A program made the position numbers and the translations under genes. The notes under the pieces were generated by a model, which did not search any database, had not been told where the DNA came from, and saw only the letters and a program-made list of their open reading frames with translations. This document shows, in pieces, positions 16,019-32,516 of a stretch of 64,000 nucleotides of DNA. The first letter of the stretch is position 1. Each line of letters opens with the position of its first letter. The stretch comes from an uncultured Chloroflexales bacterium (lineage in GTDB: Bacteria; Chloroflexota; Chloroflexia; Chloroflexales; Chloroflexaceae), in contig CAKZSI010000069.1 in NCBI GenBank assembly GCA_937918935.1, positions 1 to 64,000 of the forward strand, read 5' to 3'.

Positions 16019-16513
16019 TCAGTCACGACCGATGCCCGCCTCGGTCAGGAGGCGCACCACCCGCTCGAGGCGATTGAGGGCCCGGGCTAGCAACAGGGCC
16101 GCATCGGCGATAATCGCTTCGCTAAGAGCCGGATTGGTGTTGACCTTGTCGCGCACAGGCCGCAGCACCTGCTCCATCGTATCGAGAAAGTCGCTTGCCT
16201 GATACAGGGCGGTTTCGGCATCCTCGCGCTGTTTGGAAGCCACCATCGGCCAGCGGCCATGGATCGGTTTGGCGCGGGCCATCGAGAGAAAGCGCGCCAC
16301 CCGATCGGCCCGCGTCAACGCATCTGAGACGTAGCGTTCGGTGTCGGTAACCAGGACGAGGGTGAGACTTTGATTGCCATGAACCCTGGCCCGGGCTGAG
16401 TCGAGCGTGGTCTGGGCCCGTTGCAGGATCTGTACCGCCTCATCAGCAGCCTGGATCGCCGCTTCCCGTTCGCTCTCCGCTTCGATTGGCCATCGTCGAG
16501 GAATCGTCGGCAT
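16019..16513 (-). CDS. Unknown helical protein
   Basis: About 164 residues, almost entirely helical by composition (EAAIQAADEAVQILQRA and DAALLLARALNRLERVV), with no cysteine pair or recognisable catalytic motif. I do not recognise the family. The start at ATG 16513 is preceded by GGAGG three bases away, and it overlaps the end of the upstream membrane-protein gene by 71 bases, suggesting translational coupling. The two genes probably form one unit. Confidence 0.55.
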   Translation of the reverse strand: MPTIPRRWPIEAESEREAAIQAADEAVQILQRAQTTLDSARARVHGNQSLTLVLVTDTERYVSDALTRADRVARFLSMARAKPIHGRWPMVASKQREDAETALYQASDFLDTMEQVLRPVRDKVNTNPALSEAIIADAALLLARALNRLERVVRLLTEAGIGRD

Positions 16514-16895
16514 AAGCCTCCACAGGCGCCTGTTCCCGGGTTGCGGCATAGCGCAGGAGTTCAATCTGCCGCACCATCGCCTCACCGATCTGCCAGAGGA
16601 TGATCGGCGTGCCCGAGGCGATAAAGCCACGCCAGACCGCCGCCTCATACTGGCGCCAGTCCATATCGGGCTGCCGGCGGGCGGCGATAGCCACAGGAAC
16701 CAGCGTAATCAGGACCCCACCGGCCACTTCGGCCCAGGTGTGGTCGGGCTTGATGGGAAGGCGGCGCTCGAGATAGCTGAGCGCCACCGCATAGGCGGTC
16801 GAGAGTCCCAACGTCAGCAGGGGCGTGCCGAGCATCGGATCGCCTGAGGTCTGCTTGGCCTGGGACACGTCACGCTTCAGTTGAAACCGGGTCAT
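16443..16895 (-). CDS. Unknown small membrane protein
   Basis: A 150-residue protein with two probable membrane segments (about residues 21-40 and 55-75), separated by YLERRLPIKPDHTW, and a soluble tail. AAAGGAA precedes the ATG at 16895. I do not recognise the family; the layout recalls small holin-like or membrane-adaptor proteins, but nothing confirms that. It is divergent from the MraZ operon, so the 398-base gap to the right must carry promoters in both directions. Confidence 0.6.
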   Translation of the reverse strand: MTRFQLKRDVSQAKQTSGDPMLGTPLLTLGLSTAYAVALSYLERRLPIKPDHTWAEVAGGVLITLVPVAIAARRQPDMDWRQYEAAVWRGFIASGTPIILWQIGEAMVRQIELLRYAATREQAPVEAYADDSSTMANRSGERTGSGDPGC

Positions 16896-17173: not shown

Positions 17174-17202
17174 TTAACAAAGTTCTTATGATATGCTATA
17201 GT
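17174..17202 (+). promoter_or_regulatory. Promoter of the MraZ-NACHT-CHAT-gasdermin operon
   Basis: A -35 box TTAACA (17174-17179) and -10 box TATAGT (17197-17202) are separated by 17 bases, in an AT-rich island that stands out from the surrounding GC-rich DNA. The predicted start point is near 17209, inside the phased CCC array, so a bound repressor would block initiation. The rest of the gap (16896-17173) holds no gene that I can support. Confidence 0.7.
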
Positions 17203-17205
17203 ATA

Positions 17206-17275
17206 CCCCAGTTAATACCCAATAATTACCCTTAAATATCCCTGATTAAGCTCGAAAATTGCCCTGTTCGAGCCC
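17206..17275 (+). promoter_or_regulatory. Helically phased CCC array, probable MraZ operator
   Basis: CCC triplets begin at 17207, 17218, 17229, 17240, 17262 and 17273, all in one 11-bp register; the slot at 17251 is degenerate (CTC). The first four sit in AT-rich context such as TACCCA and TACCCT. On the other strand each is a GGG half-site. Known MraZ operators are direct TGGG-type repeats at roughly one helical turn just upstream of mraZ. Position, spacing and the adjacent mraZ gene suggest autoregulation; binding itself is inferred. Confidence 0.65.
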
Positions 17276-18056: not shown

Positions 18057-21000
18057 GTGACCTGGCTGCCTCTCTGGGCACGTCCATCGTGGCCGTGGCG
18101 GCGGCGCTCGCCGACGCTGCTGCCGCCGACCCCGAGGCCACGCTGCTTACCGCCCGGCTCAGCGGTCTCACCGCGCTCGGCGAGGGACCGCCCGCCGCGG
18201 CGCTGGGCCGCGCCATCGCCCAGGCCGAGGCGCGCCTGCGCGACGAGCACCCCGCCGCCGCCGGGCCGCTCATTGCGCTGCTGCGCGATCCCCATCCCGC
18301 CGCGGCACGCTTTCGTGCCGCCGCCGTGGAGGAGTTGCTGCTCGCGGGCGAGCCGGATCTGGCGCGTCTTGTTGAGGTGTACCGCCGCGAGGTGCGCACC
18401 GCTCTCGCCGCCGCCGGGAACGAGGCGCCACCCTGGCGCCTCATCGGCCCGCCGTTGATCCGTCTGCTCGGCGATCTGCTGCCCGCGGCGTGCGCCGGGC
18501 AGGCCCGGCTGCGCCGCTGCCTGCCCGACGAGGCCGAGCGCGCCCTGATCGACCGCCTGCGCGCCGCCCGCCTCGCGGCGTTTCCTGCCGAACCGTCTGG
18601 CCAGAGTATCGTCGCGACTTCCGGCGCCTCCATCGCCCAGGTGCGGCAGACCATCGTCCACGGCGATCTCTACACCCTGCCCGGTTCACCCGCACCTGAT
18701 CTACCCCTGCTCTACGCCCACTACCGCGCCTTCGTCGCCGAGACGTTCGGTTCGCTGGATTTTCGCGGGATGATGCAGGTGCAGGCGGCCACACGCATCC
18801 CCCTCGAGCGGATCTACGTTCCGCTTATGGGTCGCGCGCCACAGGATGAGCACATCCCCGACGCGCCTCGCGCCTCCCTTCACGAGTTCGTGCGCGCCCA
18901 GCCGCTTCTGGTGGTGCTCGGCGACCCCGGCAGCGGCAAGAGCACCCTGGTGCGCTACCTGCTGTTGACCCTCACCCGCGGCGACGCGCGCCGCGACCTT
19001 GGCCTCGACCCGCTCTGGCTGCCGATCTTCTTTCCTGTGGCCTCCTTCGCCGCCGCCCGCTCCCGGCCCGGCGCGGGCGATCTGTCTCCCCTGGAGTATC
19101 TCAGCGCCTACTACGGCGGCCTCTCCCAGCCCGACTACGGTCCGCTGTTCGCGCGCGCCCTCACCATGGGCCGCGCCCTGGTGCTCTTCGATGGTCTCGA
19201 CGAGGTGCGCGACGACCGCCAGGCGATCGTGCGCGCCCTCGAGGCGTTCGTGCGCGAGTGGGACGCCCCCGGCAATCGCTTTGTGGCCACCTCACGCATC
19301 GTCGGCTACCCGGAGGCGCCTCTCGACCCCGACCTGTTCGCCGTAGTGACCATCCAGCCCCTCTCTGACGACCTGATCCGCGCCTTTATCGAACGCTGGA
19401 GCCGGGTCTACGCCGCGATGGGCACGCCGTCGCTCGCCACCGACGGCGATCTGCTCCACGACCTGATGCGCGAGGCCGCCAGCGCCGAACTGGAGCGTCG
19501 CGTTGCCGCCCACAGTGCTGCACTCACCACAGCGGTGTTTTCGACGCCCCGGGTCACCGACCTGGCGCGCAATCCGCTCTTGCTGACCATCCTGGCGCTG
19601 ATCCACAACCAGGGCACTCGGCTGCCCGATCGCCGGGCTGATCTCTACCGTCTCTGCGTTGAGGCCCTGGCCGAGACCTGGAACCGCACCCGTTCGTTGA
19701 GCGGACGACCCATCGCCGTTCAACTCGGCGATGAGCAGATCGACGAGCGTTTCGTAGTCAATGTGCTCGGCCCGGTGGCCCTCTGGCTCCACGGCGAGCG
19801 CGCTGGCGGTCTGATTGAGCAAGACGAACTGGAGCGCCACATCGCCGTCACCCTCGCCCAGAGCGACGGTCTGCCCCGCCGGCGCGCCCGGCGTCTGGCC
19901 CGCGAGTTCATCGAGTTGATGCGCCGCGATACCGGGCTGCTCATCGAGCGCGGCTACCGCCGCTTCGCCTTCGTGCATCTGACCTTCGAGGAGTACCTGG
20001 CCGCCCGCGGGCTGCTGGAGTCGGTGGTGGTCGAGCGCCCCGATGACCTGCTGCAACGCTACGCCCTCGACCCGCGCTGGCACGAGGTGCTGCGTCTAGC
20101 TATCGCCTCGGCCTCGCAACGCGAGGCGCAGCGCCTGCTGCTCACGTTGCTGGCAACACCAGCCGGAGATGAGCAGCGCGGTCTACCCGCGGTGCTGGCC
20201 GGCGAATGTCTCCTCGATGCCGGGCGCAATGCCGCCGGCGGGCGCGCCTGGGAAGCCGGCCTGGGGGCGCTGCTGGCCGTCGTGGCCGATCCCGCTGCGC
20301 CGCTCAACATCCGCGTCGCCGCTGGCGAGGTGCTCGGACGTCTCGGTGATCCGCGGCTGCTCGACCCGGCCACGGGTCGCGCCGTGGGCGCCAGTGGAGC
20401 GGCGATCCCCGATTACTGGTGCGACGTGCCCGCGGGCACGTTCTGGCATGGCGACGAGCGCCAGCGGCGCGGGCGCCGCGCCGCCCTGAAACCGGTCGAA
20501 CTGCCCTACGCCTTTCGCATCGCCCGCTACCCGGTGACCAATGCCGAGTTTGCCCGCTTCATCGCCGCCGGTGGCTACAGCGACCCGCGCTGGTGGAGCG
20601 TGACGGGGTGGGCCTTCCTGGGACCAGACGGCCATCGCGCCCCGCCCGAGGAGCGTGGCGCGCCCATCGCGCAGCCCGGACTCTGGACGGTCGCCAGCTA
20701 CAACGGCCCCACGCAGCCGGTGGTCGGCGTCTCGTGGTACGAAGCGGCGGCCTTCTGCACCTGGCTGACGGCCGAGGGCCGCGCCGCCGGCTGGCTCTAC
20801 CCCGGCGAGATGTTGCGCCTGCCGACGGCGCTCGAATGGGAACGGGCCGCGCGCCACCTCGACCAGCGCCGGTACCCCTGGGGCGACGATCCGCCCGACA
20901 CGGGCCACGCCAACTTCGCCGCGTGCGCCCTGCGCGCTCCCTCACCCATTGGCTGCTTTCCCGCCGGCGCCGCGGTCTGCGGGGCGCTCGATCTGGCCGG

Positions 21001-21220
21001 CAATGTCTGGGAGTGGACCTGCAGCCTGGCCGACGCCCTGGAGGAGCGCGGGCCGCGCACCGATGTGGCGCTCCACGAAACCCCGGCGATCAAAGGCGGG
21101 GCCTTTAACTGGGAGGCCGAGGGGCTGCGCTGTGGCGCTTACAACCGTTTCCCACCCACCCAGCGCTACAACTTGCTGGGCTTTCGTCTGGTGTGGGTTG
21201 CCGCCGAGGAGGGTGTATGA
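18053..21220 (+). CDS. NACHT-family STAND NTPase with C-terminal FGE-like domain
   Basis: A 1055-residue NLR-like protein. Residues 1-280 are helical with a linker (SGASIAQVRQTIVHGDLY) of the type found before NACHT domains. The NTPase has Walker A GDPGSGKST (about 290-298) and Walker B LVLFDGLDEV (about 377-386), followed by helical and HEAT-like sensor segments (about 650-780). Residues 790-1050 form a formylglycine-generating-enzyme/C-type-lectin-like domain: FRIARYPVTNAEFARF, VVGVSWYEAAAFCTWL, LRLPTALEWERAAR, LDLAGNVWEWTCS and a final LGFRLVW. Such NTPases act as ligand-triggered assembly switches; the FGE fold may recognise the ligand. ATGA overlaps join it to both neighbours. Confidence 0.92.
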   Translation: MSDLAASLGTSIVAVAAALADAAAADPEATLLTARLSGLTALGEGPPAAALGRAIAQAEARLRDEHPAAAGPLIALLRDPHPAAARFRAAAVEELLLAGEPDLARLVEVYRREVRTALAAAGNEAPPWRLIGPPLIRLLGDLLPAACAGQARLRRCLPDEAERALIDRLRAARLAAFPAEPSGQSIVATSGASIAQVRQTIVHGDLYTLPGSPAPDLPLLYAHYRAFVAETFGSLDFRGMMQVQAATRIPLERIYVPLMGRAPQDEHIPDAPRASLHEFVRAQPLLVVLGDPGSGKSTLVRYLLLTLTRGDARRDLGLDPLWLPIFFPVASFAAARSRPGAGDLSPLEYLSAYYGGLSQPDYGPLFARALTMGRALVLFDGLDEVRDDRQAIVRALEAFVREWDAPGNRFVATSRIVGYPEAPLDPDLFAVVTIQPLSDDLIRAFIERWSRVYAAMGTPSLATDGDLLHDLMREAASAELERRVAAHSAALTTAVFSTPRVTDLARNPLLLTILALIHNQGTRLPDRRADLYRLCVEALAETWNRTRSLSGRPIAVQLGDEQIDERFVVNVLGPVALWLHGERAGGLIEQDELERHIAVTLAQSDGLPRRRARRLAREFIELMRRDTGLLIERGYRRFAFVHLTFEEYLAARGLLESVVVERPDDLLQRYALDPRWHEVLRLAIASASQREAQRLLLTLLATPAGDEQRGLPAVLAGECLLDAGRNAAGGRAWEAGLGALLAVVADPAAPLNIRVAAGEVLGRLGDPRLLDPATGRAVGASGAAIPDYWCDVPAGTFWHGDERQRRGRRAALKPVELPYAFRIARYPVTNAEFARFIAAGGYSDPRWWSVTGWAFLGPDGHRAPPEERGAPIAQPGLWTVASYNGPTQPVVGVSWYEAAAFCTWLTAEGRAAGWLYPGEMLRLPTALEWERAARHLDQRRYPWGDDPPDTGHANFAACALRAPSPIGCFPAGAAVCGALDLAGNVWEWTCSLADALEERGPRTDVALHETPAIKGGAFNWEAEGLRCGAYNRFPPTQRYNLLGFRLVWVAAEEGV

Positions 21221-22584
21221 AGCCATCCCCTGTCCGCGCCGATCCACGGCTGATCTTCTTACCGCGCCGCGACGGCGTCACCCTGCGCTGGGAAGCCGAC
21301 GTACTCGGCGCCCGCGCCAGCCGTATGGCGCCGCCCTTCCTGCGTGACGACCTGGCCCTGGTGCTACGGGCCCTCGACGCCCTGCAGGACCCGGCCTACC
21401 CCATCGCCTGGAACGACGATCAGGAGCAACGCTTCGCCTTCGGCGCAACCGAGCGCGCCCGGCTGGCCGCCCTGGAGCTCTGGGATGCGGCGGAGCGCGT
21501 ATCCGCCGATGCGCCCCGGCGCGTGGGCCGCCGGCTCTTTCACGCCCTGACCGCCGACCCCGCCGGCGCCCGCGCCCTGGCCACGCTGCGCGATCACGCC
21601 ACGGCCCTTGGCCACCCCCTGCGCCTGGAGTTGTGCTTCCCGCCCGAAGCGACCGACCTGGCCGCCCTGCCCTGGGAACTTCTCTGGGACGAGGGGCCGC
21701 TGCCCCTGGTGCTGGCCCACGACGGCGCCGGCAGCATCGCGCGGCGGCTGGACCTGCCGCAGGCCCTGCCGCCGCGCCGCCAGGCCAGCGGCCCGTTGCG
21801 CATTCTGGCTATCTCGCCCCGGGCCGGCATCAGCCCCGAGTTGCGCCAGGTCGAACGCGCCGCCCGTCTCGATACCTGGCAGCCGCTGATCGACGCCGGG
21901 CGCGCCAGGGTGATTGAAGTAGAGCCGGCCAGCCGGGTCATGGTGGTGCAGGCCCTCGGCGCCGGCCCACCACCCGATGTCGTGCATTTCTACGGCCACG
22001 GACGCTACCTCAACGGCGAGGGGGCGCTGCTCCTCGATGACGGCTCCGGCACAGCCTGGACGCCCGCCACCACCCTGGCGGCCCTCTTCGGCGGGGTCGC
22101 GCTGGTGGTGCTGCACGCCTGCCAGGGGGCCATGCTCGGCGTGAGCGCGCCCCTCGTTGCCGGGGTGGCCCAGGCCCTCTGCGCCAACGGCGTACCTGCC
22201 GTGCTGGGGATGCAACTCAGCGTGCGCGCCAGCGCCGCCGGGCGCGTCGGCGCCGTGCTCTACCAGGCCCTCGCCGCCGGGCGCAGCCTGCAAGACGCCG
22301 TTGCCCTTGCCCGACGCGCCCTGTTCGTCGAGGAAGGCGATCGTGTCTCCTGGTTCGTTCCGGCCCTCTACCTGCGGGACCGCGACGGGGGGCCGTTTTA
22401 CCTCCGCCCGCCCGCCACCGATCCCACCGGAGAGGCGGCGCCACCCGCCGCCCGGCAGATGGTGCTGGCCCACGGCGGGCAGATCCGCACCCTGCGCATC
22501 CAGGGCCGCGCCGGCTCGGCCCAGCGCGTCGTCGCCCTCGACGGAGGCCACATCAGCGGCGTGTCAATGGAGGATCGATCGTAA
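21217..22584 (+). CDS. CHAT-domain caspase-like protease
   Basis: A 455-residue protein whose C-terminal half is a CHAT peptidase (caspase clan). The catalytic His lies in HFYGHG (His261) and the Cys in LHACQGA (Cys302); both are present, so it is predicted active. The N-terminal domain contains LAALPWELLWDEG, the usual entry motif of CHAT proteins. It starts at ATG 21217, overlapping the NACHT stop by four bases, which implies a stoichiometric pair. CHAT proteases coupled to NLR-like NTPases cleave partner proteins on activation; the likeliest substrate here is the gasdermin-like protein at the operon end. That pairing is inferred. Confidence 0.92.
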   Translation: MKPSPVRADPRLIFLPRRDGVTLRWEADVLGARASRMAPPFLRDDLALVLRALDALQDPAYPIAWNDDQEQRFAFGATERARLAALELWDAAERVSADAPRRVGRRLFHALTADPAGARALATLRDHATALGHPLRLELCFPPEATDLAALPWELLWDEGPLPLVLAHDGAGSIARRLDLPQALPPRRQASGPLRILAISPRAGISPELRQVERAARLDTWQPLIDAGRARVIEVEPASRVMVVQALGAGPPPDVVHFYGHGRYLNGEGALLLDDGSGTAWTPATTLAALFGGVALVVLHACQGAMLGVSAPLVAGVAQALCANGVPAVLGMQLSVRASAAGRVGAVLYQALAAGRSLQDAVALARRALFVEEGDRVSWFVPALYLRDRDGGPFYLRPPATDPTGEAAPPAARQMVLAHGGQIRTLRIQGRAGSAQRVVALDGGHISGVSMEDRS

Positions 22585-22777: not shown

Positions 22778-24631
22778 ATGCATATCGAATGGCTCGGCAT
22801 GACCCGCCAGCACTACCAGCCTGGCGCCCTCACCCGGGTGCGTATGGTGGTGATCCACGCCACTGCCGGGCGCGCCCCCGGCGACCTCAACTGGCTACGC
22901 CAGGGCGGCGATGAACACCGTCCCGTCTCGGTTCACTACTACATTGGTCGCGATGGGCGGGTTGTGCAACTGGTCAAAGAGGAAGACATTGCCTGGCATG
23001 CCGGCACGAGCGTCTGGGCTGTTGATGGGCGCGTTATGCAGCATTGCAACCGCTTCTCGATTGGTATTGAGCTGGAAAACCTTAACACCGGGCGCGATCC
23101 CTACCCCGAAGCCCAGTATGCCGCCGCGCTGGAGCTAACGCGGGATCTGGTGCGCCGCCACAACGTGCCGCGTGGCCAGCTCGTCCGCCACCTGGACATC
23201 GCGCCAGGGCGCAAGACCGATCCCGCCGGTTTCCCCTGGGAACGTTTCGTCAGCGAGGTCTACGCTGGCACATCCGAGGCCAACGACGACCCGCAGGCCC
23301 AACTGCGCGCCCTGATGCGTGACCTTGCCTACCGGGCCGCCGGTTCGGCGCTACCCGCCGTATGGCCCCTGTACGAAGCCGCCCGCGCCGCACATCTCGG
23401 CATGCCCATCGCCAGTCGCAGCGGGCGTCCCCAGGCTGCCAGCCCCGCGACGGCCCAGGACGACCGCGACCGCGCAGTGCGTCTCCCCGGCCAGGCACCG
23501 CTGATCATCGAGGTGTACGCCCGCGACCTGCTCTACGCGCCCCTGACCAGCGACGAGCGCCCCCGGGCCAGCGCCATCCGCCGCTTGAACGAGACGCCTC
23601 CCGGCCCGCTGCGCGAGGCCCTGGTTGGAGAAATGTTCCGCGCTGCCGATCCGGTCAATGGCTTCCGGCCCGACTGGGCCTTCCACCAACGCTGGCAACT
23701 GCGCGCCAGCGACCTGGGGGCGCCCATCGGTCCCAACCATCGCATTGTGGTGGGGGGGAAGCCCTTTGCCTGCCAGCACTTCGCTCTGGACAGCCTCTGC
23801 TCACCGGTGGGCGCCTGGCGCACGATCTACCACCTGAGCGAACTGAGCAGCGGGGGGAGCGGCGCCCCTCAGCCCGCGGCGCTGCGCGTCGCCCTGCTCG
23901 ACGACCTCTACCGTGCCCGCGCCGGGCGACGCTACGACCCGACGGCGCTCCTTATACGGCAGGCCGAGACCCGGCGCCTGGGCGCACCTCTGGCGCCGCC
24001 CGAAGTGGCGATGGTCGCGGGCCGTCCGTACCTGCTGATGGCCTTTGCCCTCGATGTCCTGGCCTGCCCATTGCCGCGCCTCACCTGGCCCCTCGACCAG
24101 CCATTGCCCGCCGAGACGCCGGCAATCGCCCTCGACGACGCCCCGGCGCTCCTGGGCGCGCCCGTCCCACAGTGGACGGAGCGTCTGCTGGGCGCCGCCG
24201 CGGCGCCCGCGCTGCACGACCTGCTCCTTGACGCACCCCGGGGCCATGACCGCCCGGCGCCCGACACCCTGCTCATCAGCACGGCGCCCGGCCCTGCCGC
24301 CACCGATCTGCGCCTGGAAGCCGGAAACGCCCGCTGGCACTACTACGTCACGACCTCCGGCGCGATCTACCGTCTCGGTGACGAACGTGCCAGCGCTGGC
24401 GCCCCGGCGCCAACCAGACGCGCCGTATGCATCGCGGTCGAAGGGGGCGCCACTGCCGCCGGCCCGACCCAGCGCGCCGCCCTCGCCTGGCTGGTACGCA
24501 CCCTGGCGAACGCCTGGCACATTGCTCCGCAGCAGATTATCGCCACTGACAGGGCATCGTCAGGCTCGGGCGTGCGCCGGACCAATACAGAACGACATCC
24601 TGTTGAGATTGGAGGAGCAAACGATGTCTGA
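22778..24631 (+). CDS. PGRP/Amidase_2 protein with a second, degenerate amidase domain
   Basis: A 617-residue protein. Residues 20-165 form an N-acetylmuramoyl-L-alanine amidase of the PGRP/AmpD type, with zinc ligands His27 (VVIHATAG), His138 (RHLDIAPG) and Asp148 (RKTDP), plus EDIAWHAG; it should cut or bind peptidoglycan stem peptides. Three copies of an unnamed repeat follow (about 205-253, 312-343, 400-430; LGxP, then FALDxL and CP or AP). Residues 495-607 resemble a second amidase domain (HYYVTTSGAIYRLGDE) but lack the first His (LLISTAPG) and the last ligands, so it can only bind. No signal peptide is seen. GGAGG precedes ATG 22778. It overlaps ftsZ by 8 bases. Confidence 0.85.
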   Translation: MHIEWLGMTRQHYQPGALTRVRMVVIHATAGRAPGDLNWLRQGGDEHRPVSVHYYIGRDGRVVQLVKEEDIAWHAGTSVWAVDGRVMQHCNRFSIGIELENLNTGRDPYPEAQYAAALELTRDLVRRHNVPRGQLVRHLDIAPGRKTDPAGFPWERFVSEVYAGTSEANDDPQAQLRALMRDLAYRAAGSALPAVWPLYEAARAAHLGMPIASRSGRPQAASPATAQDDRDRAVRLPGQAPLIIEVYARDLLYAPLTSDERPRASAIRRLNETPPGPLREALVGEMFRAADPVNGFRPDWAFHQRWQLRASDLGAPIGPNHRIVVGGKPFACQHFALDSLCSPVGAWRTIYHLSELSSGGSGAPQPAALRVALLDDLYRARAGRRYDPTALLIRQAETRRLGAPLAPPEVAMVAGRPYLLMAFALDVLACPLPRLTWPLDQPLPAETPAIALDDAPALLGAPVPQWTERLLGAAAAPALHDLLLDAPRGHDRPAPDTLLISTAPGPAATDLRLEAGNARWHYYVTTSGAIYRLGDERASAGAPAPTRRAVCIAVEGGATAAGPTQRAALAWLVRTLANAWHIAPQQIIATDRASSGSGVRRTNTERHPVEIGGANDV

Positions 24632-25751
24632 TCAGCCAACGACCCGTGTCAGCGCCGACCTGCGGGAGGTTGCCGACAACGTGATCGTCTTTTCCCGACC
24701 AGAAGACGTCGCCGCGCGCCCTTCGCTTTTTCTGGCCCAGCTTCCGCTCGACTCCGCTCCGGTGAAGATCCGGGTCGTCGGCGTGGGCGGAGCGGGCGGC
24801 AACGTCATTGACCGGCTGGCCGGCGAACGCATCCCCAGCGTGGACACCCTGGTCGTCAACACCGACCGGCAGGCCCTCGGCGCCAGTCGGGCCACCCGCC
24901 ACCTGGTACTGGGCGAGACGGTGACCCGCGGCCTTGGTGCAGGGGGAGACCCGCTGGTGGGCCGCCAGGCCGCCGAGGAGAGCGCGGCCTCGCTGCGCGA
25001 GCGTCTACGGGGCGCCGACATGGTCTTTATCGCCGCGGGCATGGGGGGAGGAACAGGAACCGGCGCAGCGCCGATCGTCGCGCGCGTGGCCCGCGAACTG
25101 GGCGCCCTCTGTGTTGCCCTGGTCACCCGGCCCTTCAGCTTCGAGGGGCGGCGACGCGCGCAGATCGCTACCCAGGGCATCGTCACCCTGCGCGAAGTCG
25201 CCGATACGCTGATCATCGTGCCGAACGATCGACTGATCCAGGCTGCTACGCGCAGCACCTCCATCCGTGAGGCGTTCGACATGGCCGATACCGTGCTACG
25301 GCTCGGTGTGCAGGGCATCGCCGAACTGATGGTACAGCGCGGCCTGATCAACGTTGACTTCGCCGATGTGCGCGCCGTGATGGAACGGGCCGGCATGGCC
25401 CTGCTGGGCATTGGCGCGGCACGGGGCCACAACCGCGTCGTTGAGGCCCTGCGCCGCGCCACCGCCTGCCCGCTGCTGGAGGGCCGCCTCGAAGGCGCGC
25501 GCCGGCTGTTGCTCAACATCACCGGCGGCAACGACCTGGGTCTCCTGGAGGTGCACACCGCCGCCGAACTGGTGGCCCGCACCATTGACCCCGACGCCAA
25601 CATCATCTTCGGGGCCACGATTGACCCGACCCTGACCTCCGGCCTGGTCAAGGTCACCCTGGTCGCCACCGGCTTTGCCGACGTCGAGGCGCCGGAGACC
25701 CTCCCACGGGCCGGGGCGCGGGGAAACCCGCTTTCCCCGGGTTCGCGTTAG
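24624..25751 (+). CDS. ftsZ: FtsZ GTPase embedded in the NACHT-CHAT operon
   Basis: A 375-residue tubulin-fold GTPase. The signature GGGTGTG is at 141-147, and the T7 loop keeps the catalytic set N243, D245 and D248 (NVDFADV). FtsZ motifs such as RPFSFEGRRR and VDPDANIIFG-like DPDANIIFG are close to consensus, so polymerisation and GTP hydrolysis are expected. It has a 46-residue N-terminal extension, and the tail after residue 350 is only about 25 residues, without the conserved C-terminal peptide that binds FtsA-type anchors. ATG 24624 follows GGAGGAG and overlaps the amidase stop by 8 bases. No other dcw genes surround it. It could be the cell's main FtsZ or a paralogue dedicated to this system. 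Confidence 0.93.
   Translation: MSDQPTTRVSADLREVADNVIVFSRPEDVAARPSLFLAQLPLDSAPVKIRVVGVGGAGGNVIDRLAGERIPSVDTLVVNTDRQALGASRATRHLVLGETVTRGLGAGGDPLVGRQAAEESAASLRERLRGADMVFIAAGMGGGTGTGAAPIVARVARELGALCVALVTRPFSFEGRRRAQIATQGIVTLREVADTLIIVPNDRLIQAATRSTSIREAFDMADTVLRLGVQGIAELMVQRGLINVDFADVRAVMERAGMALLGIGAARGHNRVVEALRRATACPLLEGRLEGARRLLLNITGGNDLGLLEVHTAAELVARTIDPDANIIFGATIDPTLTSGLVKVTLVATGFADVEAPETLPRAGARGNPLSPGSR
25719..25739 (+). repeat. Palindromic repeat encoding part of the FtsZ tail
   Basis: CGGGGAAA and TTTCCCCG form an 8-bp stem around CCCGC. It is a copy of the window's intergenic repeat, but here it lies inside the coding sequence and supplies about residues 366-372 (RGNPLSP). A second copy occupies about 25816-25841, in the gap before the next gene. 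Confidence 0.6.
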
Positions 25752-25909: not shown

Positions 25910-26773
25910 ATGAGCCTGATCCGTCTCTGCCGCGAGGACCCGCTGGTGAGCCTGGTGTACGAACTCTTTGGCGCCAACATCGTGCGCGTGCCCGATGCCC
26001 GGGTGCGCCCGCTGACCGTGGTGGTGCACCGCGACGGGCGCAGCTTCTTCCGCGGCGCCCTGCTGCCCCTCCTCACCGACAGCCGGCCCCTGGGCGTCCC
26101 ACCCGAGGAGACCGAACTCACCGACATCTCGGGGCGTCGCTCGCGCCGCGTGGCCCTCGATCTAGGCCTGCACATCCTGCGGGGCTTCCTCAAGGGCTTC
26201 GGCGTGCCTGCCGCCGAACTGACCGCCGGGATCGAGGGGGCGGCCCATATCCAGTTCGCCTTTCCCGATGTGCGTCGCCTGGCCCTCGATGTCAACGCCC
26301 TGGGCTGGGCCATAGCCGGGCGCTGCATCGACCGGGCCAACCCCGCCGCCGCCATCCTCTTTGAACACCCGCGCTACGATCTGCTGCTGATCGACTCGGT
26401 GCTGATCAGTCGCTACATCACGATAGTGCTCACCGGCGCGCGGGGGCAACGCCTCAACGTTGACGTCTCGGCGCTCCAGCACCTCCTGGCCGAACTTGGG
26501 GGCCACGTGAACGCCTCCAACGCCGGCGAGATCGAGATGACCCTTGAAAGCCCCCACGCCCTCACCTTCGCCTTCTCCTGCGTGCGTCTGTTCTTTACCG
26601 ACGAGGGGCTTATCAGCATCATGCCACCCGATCACAGCCGGCGCACCCTCGGCCCCGCCGACCTGGCCAGCCCCCTGGTTGCCCGCCCCTCACCTGATCG
26701 CATCCAGCTCAGCCCTGGCCCGGGTCTGGTGCTATGGGATCGCTGGCCGTCGGAACAGCCGGTCGCAACCTGA
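25910..26773 (+). CDS. Bacterial gasdermin-like pore-forming protein
   Basis: A 287-residue protein resembling bacterial gasdermins in length and pattern. The N-terminus, with Cys7 next to DPLV (LCREDPLV) and then IVRVPDARVRPLTVV, matches the family's opening, where an N-terminal Cys is lipidated. LTDISGRRS, LDLGLHILRGFL, HIQFAFPDV, LLIDSVLISRYITIVLTG, LAELGGHVN and LTFAFSCVRLFF follow in the family's order. Gasdermins are held inactive by a short C-terminal segment; proteolysis releases a membrane-pore-forming domain. The last 45 residues here (from about Asp241, with Arg244-Arg245) could be that segment. The co-encoded CHAT protease is the candidate activator. AGGAG precedes the ATG. The family call rests on remembered pattern, not a search. 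Confidence 0.75.
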   Translation: MSLIRLCREDPLVSLVYELFGANIVRVPDARVRPLTVVVHRDGRSFFRGALLPLLTDSRPLGVPPEETELTDISGRRSRRVALDLGLHILRGFLKGFGVPAAELTAGIEGAAHIQFAFPDVRRLALDVNALGWAIAGRCIDRANPAAAILFEHPRYDLLLIDSVLISRYITIVLTGARGQRLNVDVSALQHLLAELGGHVNASNAGEIEMTLESPHALTFAFSCVRLFFTDEGLISIMPPDHSRRTLGPADLASPLVARPSPDRIQLSPGPGLVLWDRWPSEQPVAT

Positions 26774-26804: not shown

Positions 26805-26868
26805 GGGAAAGCGGGTTTCCTACGCCCCTCCCGGCCTACCGGCAGGAGCGTAGGAAACCCGCTTTCCC
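26805..26868. terminator. Bidirectional inverted repeat ending the operon
   Basis: Perfect 21-base arms (26805-26825 and 26848-26868) flank a 22-nt centre in the gap between the gasdermin gene and the convergent desulfurase gene. It is the longest perfect palindrome seen in the window and a member of the dispersed repeat family (core AAAGCGGGTTTCC). Position suggests a two-way transcript end; no T-run is present. Confidence 0.65.
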
Positions 26869-26875
26869 CACGGTG

Positions 26876-28132
26876 TCAGGTGCGCGCCGAGGCCAGGCCA
26901 TCGAGCACCTCAAGAAAGTAGTCCACTTCCTCGGGCGTGTTATAGTGGGTCAAACCCACGCGCACCAGCCCGCCCCGGTCCTCAACGCCGAGCCGCTCGG
27001 TCAGACCCAGGGCGTAGAAGTTGCCGTCCCAGACGAAAACACCCCGCTCCGCCAGGCCCTCGGCCACGGCCCGTGGGGGCAGGTTCGCCAGGCGAAAGGC
27101 CACCGTGGGCGTGCGCTCATTGAAACGCGCCACATCGCGGATGCCGTAGAAGGTCAATCCAGGGATGCGCAGCAATCCCTCGACCAGTTGCTCGGCCAGG
27201 CCGCGTTCGTAGGTCTTGATCGTCGTCATCGCCCGCACCAGGGCCGCGCGCCGCGAGTGAAGCCCGACGGCGTCAGGCGCCGTTCCCAACGACGCCAGGT
27301 ACTCAATCGCCGCCGTAGTTCCGGCCAGGCCTTCGTGGTTCTGCGTGCCGGTCATCCAGCGCTCCGGGCTTTGCTCGGGCGCCGGGCGCACCTTGTAGGG
27401 CCGCAGCCGCTCCAGCAGTTCGCGCTTGCCATAGAGCGCCCCCACGTGCGGTCCGAAAAACTTGTAGACGCTGCACGCCAGAAAGTCGCAGTCCAACGCG
27501 CGCACATCAATCGGCCCGTGGGGGGCGTAATGAACTGCGTCAACGTAGGTCATTGCGCCCACGCTGTGCGCCAGACGGATCACGCTCTGCACATCACTGA
27601 TCGAACCGACGGCGTTCGAGGCGTAGTTCACCGCCACGATTCTGGTGCGCTCGTGCACCTTCGCTGCGAGATCGGCCATGTCGAGGGTGCAATCCTCGAC
27701 GTGCACATCAACCTCGCGGATGATCGCCCCGCGCTCCTCCAGAGCGCGCCAGGGGGCCACATTCGCATCGTGGTCGAGGCGCGTCACCACCACTTCGTCG
27801 CCCGGACGCAGGTCGCGACCCAGCGCCCGGCTGACCGCGAAGGTCAGCGTGGTCATATTCGGCCCGAAGATGGTCTCTTCGGGAGCGCAACCGAGCAGGT
27901 CGGCCACGGCCCGATGCGCCGCCGCGATGGTCTCATCAGTGCGGCGGCTGGTAGGAAAGGCCCCGTGGGTATTGGCATTGCTGGTGGCCAGATAACTGGC
28001 CATGGCCTCGATGACCGACTGCGGCGTCTGGGTCCCCCCCGGGCCATCGAAGAACACCACCTCACGCATCCCGCACTGCTGGGCCAGCGCCGGAAACAAC
28101 GGTCGCACGGCGTAGGGATCAAAGAGCAGCAT
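26876..28132 (-). CDS. Cysteine-desulfurase-like class V aminotransferase
   Basis: PLP enzyme of the cysteine desulfurase/selenocysteine lyase group, 418 residues. It begins with the substrate-binding stretch VVFFDGPGGTQTPQSV. The PLP aspartate and histidine lie in YVDAVHYAPHGPID, and the Schiff-base lysine in CSVYKFFGPHVG. The variant DGPGGTQTP opening matches the 'cysteine desulfurase family' paralogues rather than IscS or SufS, and no iron-sulfur cluster genes are nearby, so the sulfur acceptor is unknown. It is convergent with the gasdermin operon. Confidence 0.87.
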   Translation of the reverse strand: MLLFDPYAVRPLFPALAQQCGMREVVFFDGPGGTQTPQSVIEAMASYLATSNANTHGAFPTSRRTDETIAAAHRAVADLLGCAPEETIFGPNMTTLTFAVSRALGRDLRPGDEVVVTRLDHDANVAPWRALEERGAIIREVDVHVEDCTLDMADLAAKVHERTRIVAVNYASNAVGSISDVQSVIRLAHSVGAMTYVDAVHYAPHGPIDVRALDCDFLACSVYKFFGPHVGALYGKRELLERLRPYKVRPAPEQSPERWMTGTQNHEGLAGTTAAIEYLASLGTAPDAVGLHSRRAALVRAMTTIKTYERGLAEQLVEGLLRIPGLTFYGIRDVARFNERTPTVAFRLANLPPRAVAEGLAERGVFVWDGNFYALGLTERLGVEDRGGLVRVGLTHYNTPEEVDYFLEVLDGLASART

Positions 28133-28263: not shown

Positions 28264-29154
28264 TCATTCTTCCCCAAGCAACGCCCGCACGGGCTGGAAA
28301 TGCAGCTTCGCGTAGCGGGCCAACCCTTCGGGGCCCTCGCGGGCGATGATCCAGCGCGCCGCCCGCTCCAGCAGCGGGCGATCCGCGGCGCCGGCCGGCA
28401 ACGGCCCCTCCCACCCCGCCAGAGCGCCCAGGCGGGCCAGTTCCTCCTGAAAGCGCGCCGTCGCCAACACCGAGGCCGCCGCCACCGCCAGGCTGCGGCC
28501 CTCGGCGTGGTGGGCCTGGCGCGGGCGCGGCAAAGCCGCCACGGCAAAGGCCGCCTCCAGGCGCGCGGCGCCCTGCGCGAATTGGTCACAGATGATCGCG
28601 CTCACCCCCGTCTGCGCCACCACCGGCGCGGCAGTGGCGGCGTAGAGTTCCGCCAGCAGCACATTGACATTGCCAGCCGCAGCGTACCGCTCATTGTACG
28701 CCAGCGGCTCGAGTACTGTGACGGCACGCGCCGCGGCGGGGATGAGGTATCCAATCGTTGCAGCCAGATCGGCCATGCGGCCGCTGGCGACGGTCTTGCT
28801 ATCGCGCACCCCTGCCCGGACCAGGGCCGGGGCCACTGCCGGATCGACGCACACCGCTGCCACCACCAGCGGCCCGAACCAGTCGCCCTTGCCCGACTCA
28901 TCCAGGCCGATCTCCGCATGCTCAACCACGAAGCCCGCCGTCACGAGCGCCAGTTCTTCCAGCGCGCGCCGCAGCGGCGTATTGCGCCCGCCCACGACGG
29001 TACGCCCCTGTTTAGGATAGTAGTTCAGGGTGGCCTGATCGCGACCATCCTCGACCAGCACCTGCGTGCCGTAGGGGATGGGCTTCCCGAGGCGCCAGCG
29101 CCATCCCCTGGCTTCGATCGCCTCTTGCAGCGCGGCGAGGCGCGGATCTTCCAT
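28264..29154 (-). CDS. rnhC: Ribonuclease HIII
   Basis: Endonuclease that removes RNA from RNA-DNA hybrids, 296 residues. The N-terminal substrate-binding TBP-like domain includes YPKQGRTVVGGRNTPL. The catalytic domain begins with IGLDESGKGDWFGPLVVAA, the DESGKGD motif that separates RNase HIII from HII; VRDSKTV and LAVAAASVLATARF follow. ATG 29154 is behind GGGGAAAGGT. A TTG at 29172 is also in frame but lacks a ribosome site. The desulfurase gene starts 131 bases downstream. Confidence 0.9.
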   Translation of the reverse strand: MEDPRLAALQEAIEARGWRWRLGKPIPYGTQVLVEDGRDQATLNYYPKQGRTVVGGRNTPLRRALEELALVTAGFVVEHAEIGLDESGKGDWFGPLVVAAVCVDPAVAPALVRAGVRDSKTVASGRMADLAATIGYLIPAAARAVTVLEPLAYNERYAAAGNVNVLLAELYAATAAPVVAQTGVSAIICDQFAQGAARLEAAFAVAALPRPRQAHHAEGRSLAVAAASVLATARFQEELARLGALAGWEGPLPAGAADRPLLERAARWIIAREGPEGLARYAKLHFQPVRALLGEE

Positions 29155-29877
29155 ATCTTGACCTTTCCCCAATTACCGTACTTTCATAGAGCGTCACAGT
29201 TCGCGGGATTCTCATCCCTCTCCGTCTCCCCCGTTGGGGGGAAAATCAGAGAGGGGGCGGGTCGGCGCGAGACAGCAACCCGGGCATCGCCCTGCGAAAA
29301 CCCTGGCCTGGCGCCGGAGGGTGGAGCAATCCGCGTCCCCACCCTCCTCCACCCGGCGCCGCGGCGCCGGCACGCCCTTCGCACAATAGATAGGGACTGC
29401 CCGGGAAGGCCTGGCCCTCCTCAACCCTTCCGTGGGTGGCCCGTCTGGGGAAGGCGATCATAGGAGGAACCCCCACCATTGTCAAGCGGCAATGTCCGAC
29501 AGGGAGGCGGCGAAACCGGGTTTCCCCGTCAACGCCATTTGGTCATTTTGCACATACGGAGCGGACAGCATTTCGGGCACGGTTACCATTGTTTGAGGTT
29601 CCGAATTTGCTACTATTACAGTAACACTCAAGATTGGACAAAGCATAAACATTCTCTTTTCAAGGGGGTGACAGGCCGGTGTGCCCTCCTTCCCTGCGAC
29701 GCGGCAGCCGTAGAGGTTGGCTCACCACACTCGTGTTTCAGTGGATTGTGACAGGTCGCTCACGCCGTGCCTGCGCTGGTACCAGGTTTGTGCCAGTGCT
29801 CCTTGCGCGAGCGAAAACGGGAAACGCTTCGGTTATCCTACCACCGCTCTGATGTAGACACGACAGGGAGTCTTACC
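29155..29877. other. Long intergenic region between rnhC and amt
   Basis: No gene is supported in these 723 bases. Visible structures are a composite hairpin (29216-29222 with 29249-29255, enclosing CTCCCCC/GGGGG) and a dispersed repeat copy at 29510-29528. A relatively AT-rich stretch at about 29580-29660 sits 220-300 bases upstream of amt and is the best place for its promoter, but I could not fix -35 and -10 boxes with good spacing. Confidence 0.5.
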
Positions 29878-31577: not shown

Positions 31578-32261
31578 TCAATGCTCTATCGGGCTGCGCT
31601 GGCGCTGGCGCTCGTAACGCTCCCGCGCCCGGCGCGCCAGGCTCAGGGCGCGCTTCTCGCCGTGCTTGGCAATCGAGTACGAGGTTCGGCGAATACGGTT
31701 ACCCTCACGCCAGGTGGCTTCATAGACCTCGCGCCCATCCTTGACGGTACGGCGCACCCCTACGATACCGGTGCTGGTGCGGGAAACCCCGATCACCTGC
31801 CGCTCGGTGCGCGGCTTCCCCAGCTCCTGCTCGGCCTTGTTGCGCCACTCCAGCGCCGCGCTCAGCGCCGCCAGCCGATCACCATACACCGAGTCGGAGA
31901 AGAACTTGCTGCGTCGCTGCTTGTTCCAGGTGACCCGCACGAAGTAGCCAAAGGTGCGCTTGGCCGGATGGTCAATGCGGGTAATGCCCTTATGCCTGGT
32001 GGTCTTCGGGCGCAGGCGCGGGGGGAGGCGGCGCGTGTCAGCCGCGGCAATCGCCCGCAGAGCGTCCTCAGCCTCCGAACGAGCCAACGAGCCGTGCTCC
32101 GAACGCAGTCTGGCGATCAGCTCAGCTTCAATTTCCGGCGGCGGGCTGTAGCGTAGCGCCGCCAGCGGGTCGTCGGAAGGGGCCGGTTTGACCATCGGTT
32201 CGGCATTGTCCGTGCGCGCGTCAGGGACAGTAGGGGGCGCCGGAGGATTTCGGCGAGGCAT
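31578..32261 (-). CDS. Protein with two AP2/ERF-type DNA-binding domains
   Basis: A 227-residue protein with a disordered, Pro-rich N-terminus and two AP2-like modules. The first (about residues 100-160) has FGYFVRVTWNKQRRSKFFSD and then YGDRLAALSAALEWRN. The second (about 175-225) has GIVGVRRTVKDGREVYEATW and then SIAKHGEKRALSLARRARE. This is the three-strand plus helix pattern of AP2 domains in bacterial and apicomplexan proteins. DNA binding is likely. ATG 32261 follows AGGAG; ATG 32279 is in frame but lacks a ribosome site. Bacterial AP2 proteins are often relatives of homing endonucleases, but no nuclease domain is visible. Confidence 0.75.
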   Translation of the reverse strand: MPRRNPPAPPTVPDARTDNAEPMVKPAPSDDPLAALRYSPPPEIEAELIARLRSEHGSLARSEAEDALRAIAAADTRRLPPRLRPKTTRHKGITRIDHPAKRTFGYFVRVTWNKQRRSKFFSDSVYGDRLAALSAALEWRNKAEQELGKPRTERQVIGVSRTSTGIVGVRRTVKDGREVYEATWREGNRIRRTSYSIAKHGEKRALSLARRARERYERQRQRSPIEH

Positions 32262-32477
32262 CGGTGTCTGACTCCTCATTGCACTATATTCGTCTAGTTG
32301 TTGCACACACTCTGCATATAGCATACCAGAAATCTGTTACCATGGAGGCGCATATGAGGAAAAGTTCTTCAGATCTCAAGTATGTTTTCCCGTAGCGCCC
32401 CGGACCGGCGGGAGGGTCCGGGAAGGCGCGGTCGTTCCGCACCCTCTCCGGGTGACCATCGCCGGTTGGAGGAGTTT

Positions 32478-32516
32478 GGGGAAAGCGGGTTTCCCCACGC
32501 CCCGGCCCGCCGGGGA
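32478..32516. repeat. Intergenic palindromic repeat copy
   Basis: A clean copy of the dispersed repeat: GGGGAAAGCGGGTTTCCCC (a 19-base near-palindrome) followed by ACGCCCCGGCCCGCCGGGG. It lies in the 312-base gap between the AP2 gene and the ABC ATPase gene, which otherwise holds only the terminator at 32528-32548. Confidence 0.65.

Follow-up and report, generated by a model that had tools for sequence, protein, structure and literature searches.

The window examined here (the whole stretch of DNA, 64,000 nucleotides) carries on its forward strand an operon consisting of a MraZ paralogue, a small ORF, a NACHT-FGE gene, a CHAT protease gene, an Amidase_2 gene, an FtsZ paralogue and, last, a gasdermin (Table 1). 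Several adjoining genes of the operon have short overlaps (18053/18056, 21217/21220 and 24624/24631), and the FtsZ and gasdermin genes share 4 bp in several relatives, such as the locus L054. The original prediction had placed a CHAT protease before the gasdermin. This protease is real, lies upstream and has kept its His and Cys residues (His in HFYGHG, from residue 265, and Cys in HACQ, from residue 308), but the two genes are not adjoining: the 617-aa Amidase_2 protein and the FtsZ paralogue are encoded between them. These two genes, the MraZ paralogue and the NACHT-FGE gene were all absent from that earlier account.

Table 1. Features of the gasdermin operon and its immediate surroundings (positions are those of the window)
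Feature	Position	Strand	Basis
Divergent coiled-coil-like protein, travels with the locus	16019-16513	-	Recurrence beside the locus
Divergent small membrane-type protein, travels with the locus	16443-16895	-	Recurrence beside the locus
Promoter with putative MraZ operator; TGCTATAGT followed by CCC boxes at 17207, 17218, 17229 and 17240	17194-17243	+	11-bp period
MraZ paralogue made of two MraZ halves, 146 aa	17294-17734	+	Pfam MraZ 80 bits, two stretches
Small conserved ORF, 72 aa	17838-18056	+	ATGA overlap with NACHT gene; HMM matches in this position in most loci
NACHT NTPase with C-terminal FGE-sulfatase (C-type-lectin-like) domain, 1055 aa	18053-21220	+	Pfam NACHT 44.5 bits, FGE-sulfatase 140.6 bits
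Short stretch of the NACHT protein similar to the CHAT C-terminal repeats	18602-18646	+	Same site in most NACHT homologues; weak HMM scores
CHAT protease, ATG overlapping the NACHT gene stop	21217-22584	+	Pfam CHAT 78.5 bits (cut-off 24); PADLOC chat 253.6 bits
Two 22-aa repeats, CHAT C-terminus	22453-22581	+	In NACHT-bearing loci; absent from eight g3 loci without NACHT
N-acetylmuramoyl-L-alanine amidase, 617 aa, with a catalytic domain, two repeats in the centre and a second, degenerate amidase-like domain	22778-24631	+	Pfam Amidase_2
FtsZ paralogue, 375 aa, C-terminal conserved peptide lost	24624-25751	+	TIGR00065 381.6 bits; GGGTGTG and NVDFADV intact
Bacterial gasdermin, 287 aa	25910-26773	+	PADLOC bGSDM 239.5 bits; NF051890 184.9 bits; Foldseek 7n51 E 8.3e-16
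Cys7 codon, predicted acylation site	25928-25930	+	Conserved in all 19 Chloroflexaceae homologues
R245-T246-L247, best candidate cleavage site	26642-26650	+	R245 18/19, L247 19/19; low-pLDDT linker begins here
Tail at the C-terminus (residues 248-287), a variable linker ahead of a conserved plug near PGLLxWD	26651-26770	+	Alignments; pLDDT
Inverted repeat past the gasdermin, made of the dispersed element	26806-26867	.	11 exact core copies in the genome

The last ORF of the operon is a genuine bacterial gasdermin (bGSDM). It matches the PADLOC bGSDM profile with an E-value of 9.8e-72 and the NCBIfam prok_gasdermin family (NF051890) with 184.9 bits, against a curated cut-off of 100; searches of Pfam and of phage family profiles gave zero matches. 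The nearest solved structures by PDB sequence match are those of the Vitiosangium gasdermin (7n51 and 8sl0, E-value: approximately 2e-13). An AlphaFold model based on an alignment of 20 relatives (mean pLDDT 72.8, pTM 0.75) has the fold of a gasdermin N-terminal domain: its best Foldseek match in the PDB is again 7n51 (TM 0.69), and every one of the best 29 PDB matches is a gasdermin or a gasdermin-containing complex. Profile and fold thus both confirm the gasdermin-like effector that had been proposed from the letters of the sequence. The bGSDMs of Vitiosangium, Bradyrhizobium and Runella (7n51, 7n50 and 7n52) have this fold and a short C-terminal tail in common with the window gasdermin, at 12-22% identity in structural alignments; the window protein has a longer tail than they do (approximately 40 residues past L247) and a different operon. 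The genome carries one gasdermin copy, and a scan of genome contigs with the gasdermin as query found two near-identical relatives and nothing else.

Acylation of an N-terminal cysteine is a feature of most known bGSDMs (PMC9612521). Cys7, which had been singled out as suited to lipidation, is present at that position and is kept in all 19 aligned Chloroflexaceae gasdermins, and its predicted acylation fits the pattern of the known proteins. The last 45 residues, described earlier as Pro-rich, contain 8 prolines. The suggestion of a protease-removable tail holds in outline: past L247, a linker of variable length is followed by a conserved end that may act as a plug (consensus DRVxLSxxPGLLxWD, weaker in g5 and g8), and pLDDT falls below 50 at residues 241-253, 258-263 and 277-287. 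The exact cut points offered with it, R244-R245 or R259, were a guess, although all three arginines do occur where the prediction placed them. R245 is conserved in 18/19 of the family gasdermins, but R244 (10/19) and R259 (14/19) are poorly conserved and were dropped as cut sites. Known bGSDMs are cleaved after Leu or Arg approximately 20 residues before the end, as against the tail of approximately 40 residues found here, and in one of them a Leu and the adjacent Gly are both essential (PMC9612521). L247|G248 fits this pattern, and either this bond or R245 is a better supported candidate than R244 or R259. The conservation of R245 and L247 (19/19) is consistent with tail cleavage and pore formation.

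The C-terminal repeats of the CHAT protease are approximately 22 aa apart and follow the consensus QxVIAxxGGxIxxL, although they are weak in two loci (L077 and L078). No such repeats were found in eight loci of genus g3, which we take to be Chloroflexus, and NACHT is absent from this genus. Residues 184-198 of the NACHT protein form a stretch that resembles the CHAT repeats, and most NACHT homologues have it at the corresponding site. An HMM made from the CHAT repeats gives it weak scores, however (E-value: 1.6-9), and a motif link between the CHAT tail and NACHT is at most suggestive. The arrangement resembles BASS amyloid signalling, which connects NLRs and effectors in filamentous bacteria, in its short repeated motif at the effector C-terminus and its possible NLR copy; this likeness is one of motif layout, clear on the CHAT side, and the NACHT-side match is weak here. 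BASS motifs have also been reported with CHAT domains (PMC7889193).

The amidase (Pfam Amidase_2, 145.9 bits) is catalytically intact as judged by its zinc and catalytic residues: H27, E98, H138, K146 and D148 are invariant among 19 sequences that are 45-85% identical to that of the window. It matches many phage endolysin families, its best PHROG matches being lysis amidases and endolysins, and its structural model matches AmpD (E-value: 6e-7) as well as AmiD, endolysins and PGRPs. No signal-peptide-like stretch was seen at its N-terminus on inspection by eye, and the enzyme would therefore stay in the cytosol and depend on a hole for access to the wall. The presence of PGRPs among its structural neighbours can be read in another way, with the amidase and the FtsZ paralogue acting as sensors or decoys in place of effectors: the amidase fold would bind muropeptides in the manner of animal PGRPs, the FtsZ paralogue would be bait for phage proteins that attack FtsZ, and binding would release NACHT and CHAT and then the gasdermin. 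A pure receptor, however, would not need the catalytic residues that are invariant here. Residues 274-437 of the amidase (23597-24088) form two repeats that are also found in a second amidase-type protein of approximately 650 aa in the same genomes (for example, G000:C14:25274-25774) and are perhaps a wall-binding module.

The FtsZ paralogue scores well above the cut-off of its family (TIGR00065, cut-off 295.2 bits). It is not the only FtsZ available for division, as the genome has a second, canonical FtsZ at C28:187032 and a canonical MraZ on the same contig (C28:168391). In a tree of FtsZ sequences, one branch with 96/96 support separates the 13 canonical proteins from all 22 paralogues, although long branches are present. 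GGGTGTG is kept in all of the aligned paralogues. The T7 loop reads NVDFADV in g1, g2 and g5 and QLDFSHV in g3; the latter has lost the catalytic Asp, which should impair GTP hydrolysis. The g3 paralogues are nonetheless under purifying selection, as a non-hydrolysing decoy might be, but the catalytic loop is kept in the other three groups, and we regard the sensor or decoy reading as unlikely. Canonical FtsZ docks to membrane anchors through its C-terminal peptide. This peptide ([IVL]PPFL) is lost in four g1 members, the window and three others, so we term the window protein an FtsZ paralogue rather than a division FtsZ; the remaining complete paralogues in the alignment retain it, namely those of g2, g3 and g5 and the g1 member L060. 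L060, L061 and L062 are among these.

A dispersed palindromic element with the core GGAAACCCGCTTTCC occurs in 11 exact copies in the genome, compared with 0 for the reversed control. Its sites in the window are 25722-25736, 26806-26820, 26853-26867 and 32480-32494, and the first of these overlaps the terminal part of the FtsZ paralogue gene (3' end), whose product lacks the C-terminal peptide.

Upstream of the MraZ paralogue, TGCTATAGT is present in 14 of the 14 examined loci having both MraZ and gasdermin, and GCTATAGT is found additionally in four loci without a MraZ gene. ACCC boxes lie downstream of TGCTATAGT at a spacing of approximately 11 bp; their mean longest run is 1.93 as compared with 0.78 in 500 dinucleotide shuffles (highest 1.14), a figure that is not a probability since the loci are related. 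The promoter with two boxes has one exact match in the 4.6-Mb genome, and the region upstream of the canonical mraZ contains GTGGG repeats. In other bacteria, MraZ is a repressor of the cluster that encodes it and recognises conserved boxes, described for Mollicutes as direct repeats (PMC8475190). By analogy, we infer that the MraZ paralogue regulates its own operon through the putative operator, which offers a direct handle on regulation.

In a Chloroflexota sample (n=400), a gasdermin was found in 19 members, of which 18 belong to the same family as the window organism, and a survey of the Chloroflexaceae found gasdermins above the cut-off in 24 of 41 genomes. Wherever contigs are long enough, the gene order is MraZ, small ORF, (NACHT), CHAT, amidase, (FtsZ), gasdermin; the series CHAT-amidase-FtsZ-gasdermin recurs on one strand in the gasdermin-bearing genomes where contigs allow, and the CHAT gene is found in all family gasdermin loci with enough contig. 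The MraZ gene is absent in L062-L064 and L055. FtsZ is absent in the gasdermin loci L071 and L084 (g8) and L083 (g230), and is thus not essential to the pore step. In three genomes the module lacks a gasdermin: G347, which has FtsZ and MraZ; G414, which has MraZ; and G214, where the contig is short. Since these relatives keep amidase, CHAT, NACHT and MraZ, the amidase may have a role that is independent of the pore. Outside this pattern, a divergent gasdermin in another Chloroflexota family adjoins a 940-aa CHAT protein (L070, G334:C34, 6838-10545), and the amidase, FtsZ, MraZ and remaining genes are absent there. At L087 (G402:C94, 7685-8913) the gasdermin extends across two overlapping frames, owing to a broken gene or an assembly error, and no operon partners were found beside it.

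For every operon gene, dN/dS lies between 0.05 and 0.32 in within-genus comparisons (0.07-0.26 for the gasdermin between genus members), and by this measure the operon is under purifying selection. These ratios and the profile matches rule out a chance match or a pseudogene. It is extremely improbable that the gasdermin has lost its function and is now a relic in decay: the FtsZ C-terminal peptide lost beside a dispersed repeat and the broken gasdermin frame of the relative G402 could be taken as signs of decay, but the window frame is intact and selected, and both operon and promoter are conserved.

The g1 and g3 loci have common flanks, with pheT upstream and an aminotransferase-type gene (26876-28132 in the window) downstream, which points to vertical inheritance of the locus in these two groups. 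The same flanks disfavour a mobile defence island; g2, g5 and g8 share the divergent gene pair only. A constant chromosomal site in g1 and g3, a single gasdermin copy and presence in 24 of the 41 genomes of a filamentous family would also suit a developmental programme that has nothing to do with phage defence and that sacrifices selected cells so that filaments break or cells with failed division are removed, with MraZ coupling it to the division state; that the operon has its own paralogues of two division genes, MraZ and FtsZ, agrees with this. We consider it somewhat unlikely, however, for three reasons. First, the NACHT, FGE-type and CHAT domains are characteristic components of conflict systems (PMC10907252). 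Second, a related gasdermin operon gives protection against phage (PMC9612521). Third, patchy loss within the family suits defence better than essential development.

The mechanism that we favour, and think probable, is a protease-controlled lysis of the holin-endolysin type under NACHT and CHAT. The MraZ paralogue would keep operon expression low through the CCC-box array until a trigger is detected by the NACHT-FGE protein, which would recruit CHAT with help from the short repeats in the CHAT tail. CHAT would then cleave the gasdermin near the conserved R245/L247 site and free the plug, and the gasdermin, predicted to be acylated at Cys7, would form large inner-membrane pores as in other members of its family. 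Through these pores the cytosolic amidase could pass and cut the wall, as a phage endolysin does after the holin. The FtsZ paralogue most likely links lysis to the division site or blocks division, and the outcome would be the sacrifice of single cells of a filament, most likely upon phage infection. Gasdermin membership, the recurrent gene order, the invariant amidase residues, low dN/dS, MraZ with its promoter, the separate FtsZ clade and the CHAT tails all argue for this model; the gasdermin-less relatives, the gasdermin loci without FtsZ and the docking peptide missing from the window FtsZ argue against it. The likeness to phage lysis lies in a membrane hole combined with a cytosolic wall-cutting amidase related to endolysins, but the system proposed here is host-encoded and protease-controlled, with a gasdermin in place of the holin, and the comparison is a working analogy in which the pore is not homologous. 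More tentatively, a host-encoded lysis programme of filamentous Chloroflexaceae may have captured the mraZ and ftsZ paralogues, a miniature of the cell-division cluster, so that pores and amidase are triggered by the division state or at the septum, a form of pyroptosis wired to the divisome. Taken as a whole, the operon conserved in these filamentous green bacteria, with its sensor, protease, amidase, spare FtsZ, spare MraZ and gasdermin, suggests a built-in lysis programme that is coupled to cell division.

Like the window organism, Oscillochloris belongs to the Chloroflexales, and it is a filamentous phototroph. The bGSDM operon of Oscillochloris trichoides is included in Fig. 2 of a 2022 review, the legend of which names caspase/CHAT, CTL (FGE), NACHT, amidase and tubulin (FtsZ) with gasdermin for its four operons, and the review suggests holin-endolysin mimicry for such operons (PMC9612521). 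Because this gene set matches and the two organisms are of one taxonomic order, the Oscillochloris operon is very probably of the same type as that of the window. Neither the operon architecture nor the basic lysis idea is therefore new, as the review drew the one and suggested the other (PMC9612521). The text of the review does not speak of MraZ, an operator array, family-wide distribution, FtsZ changes, CHAT tail repeats or gasdermin-less relatives, and experiments on this operon are absent from that account (PMC9612521). A literature search on gasdermin with Chloroflex-, FtsZ, MraZ or Oscillochloris gave no further study among the papers listed. In the literature so searched, made up of papers other than the primary bGSDM reports, no mention was found of the MraZ paralogue with its operator, the fixed locus across the family, the changes in FtsZ, the repeats of the CHAT tail or the gasdermin-less relatives. 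In the CARD-NLR gasdermin system of Lysobacter enzymogenes, a gasdermin is likewise activated by proteolysis under an NLR-like protein and death occurs through membrane pores; that system uses CARD domains, and no FtsZ or MraZ paralogue is described for it in the summary considered here (PMC13236601). The review raises two questions about bGSDMs, namely the nature of their trigger and whether they themselves are the last effectors to act (PMC9612521). If the wiring proposed here is true, bGSDMs act together with a wall hydrolase and division proteins rather than alone, and both questions become testable.

Two minor observations were made elsewhere in the window, both on the minus strand. ARAGORN reports a 99-nt tRNA-Arg (gcg) at 28330-28428, which is probably a false positive as it lies within an ORF on the same strand (28264-29172). 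A 248-aa ORF at 31578-32324 contains a stretch (GVRRTVKDGREVYEATWREG) that, judged by eye, is AP2-like.
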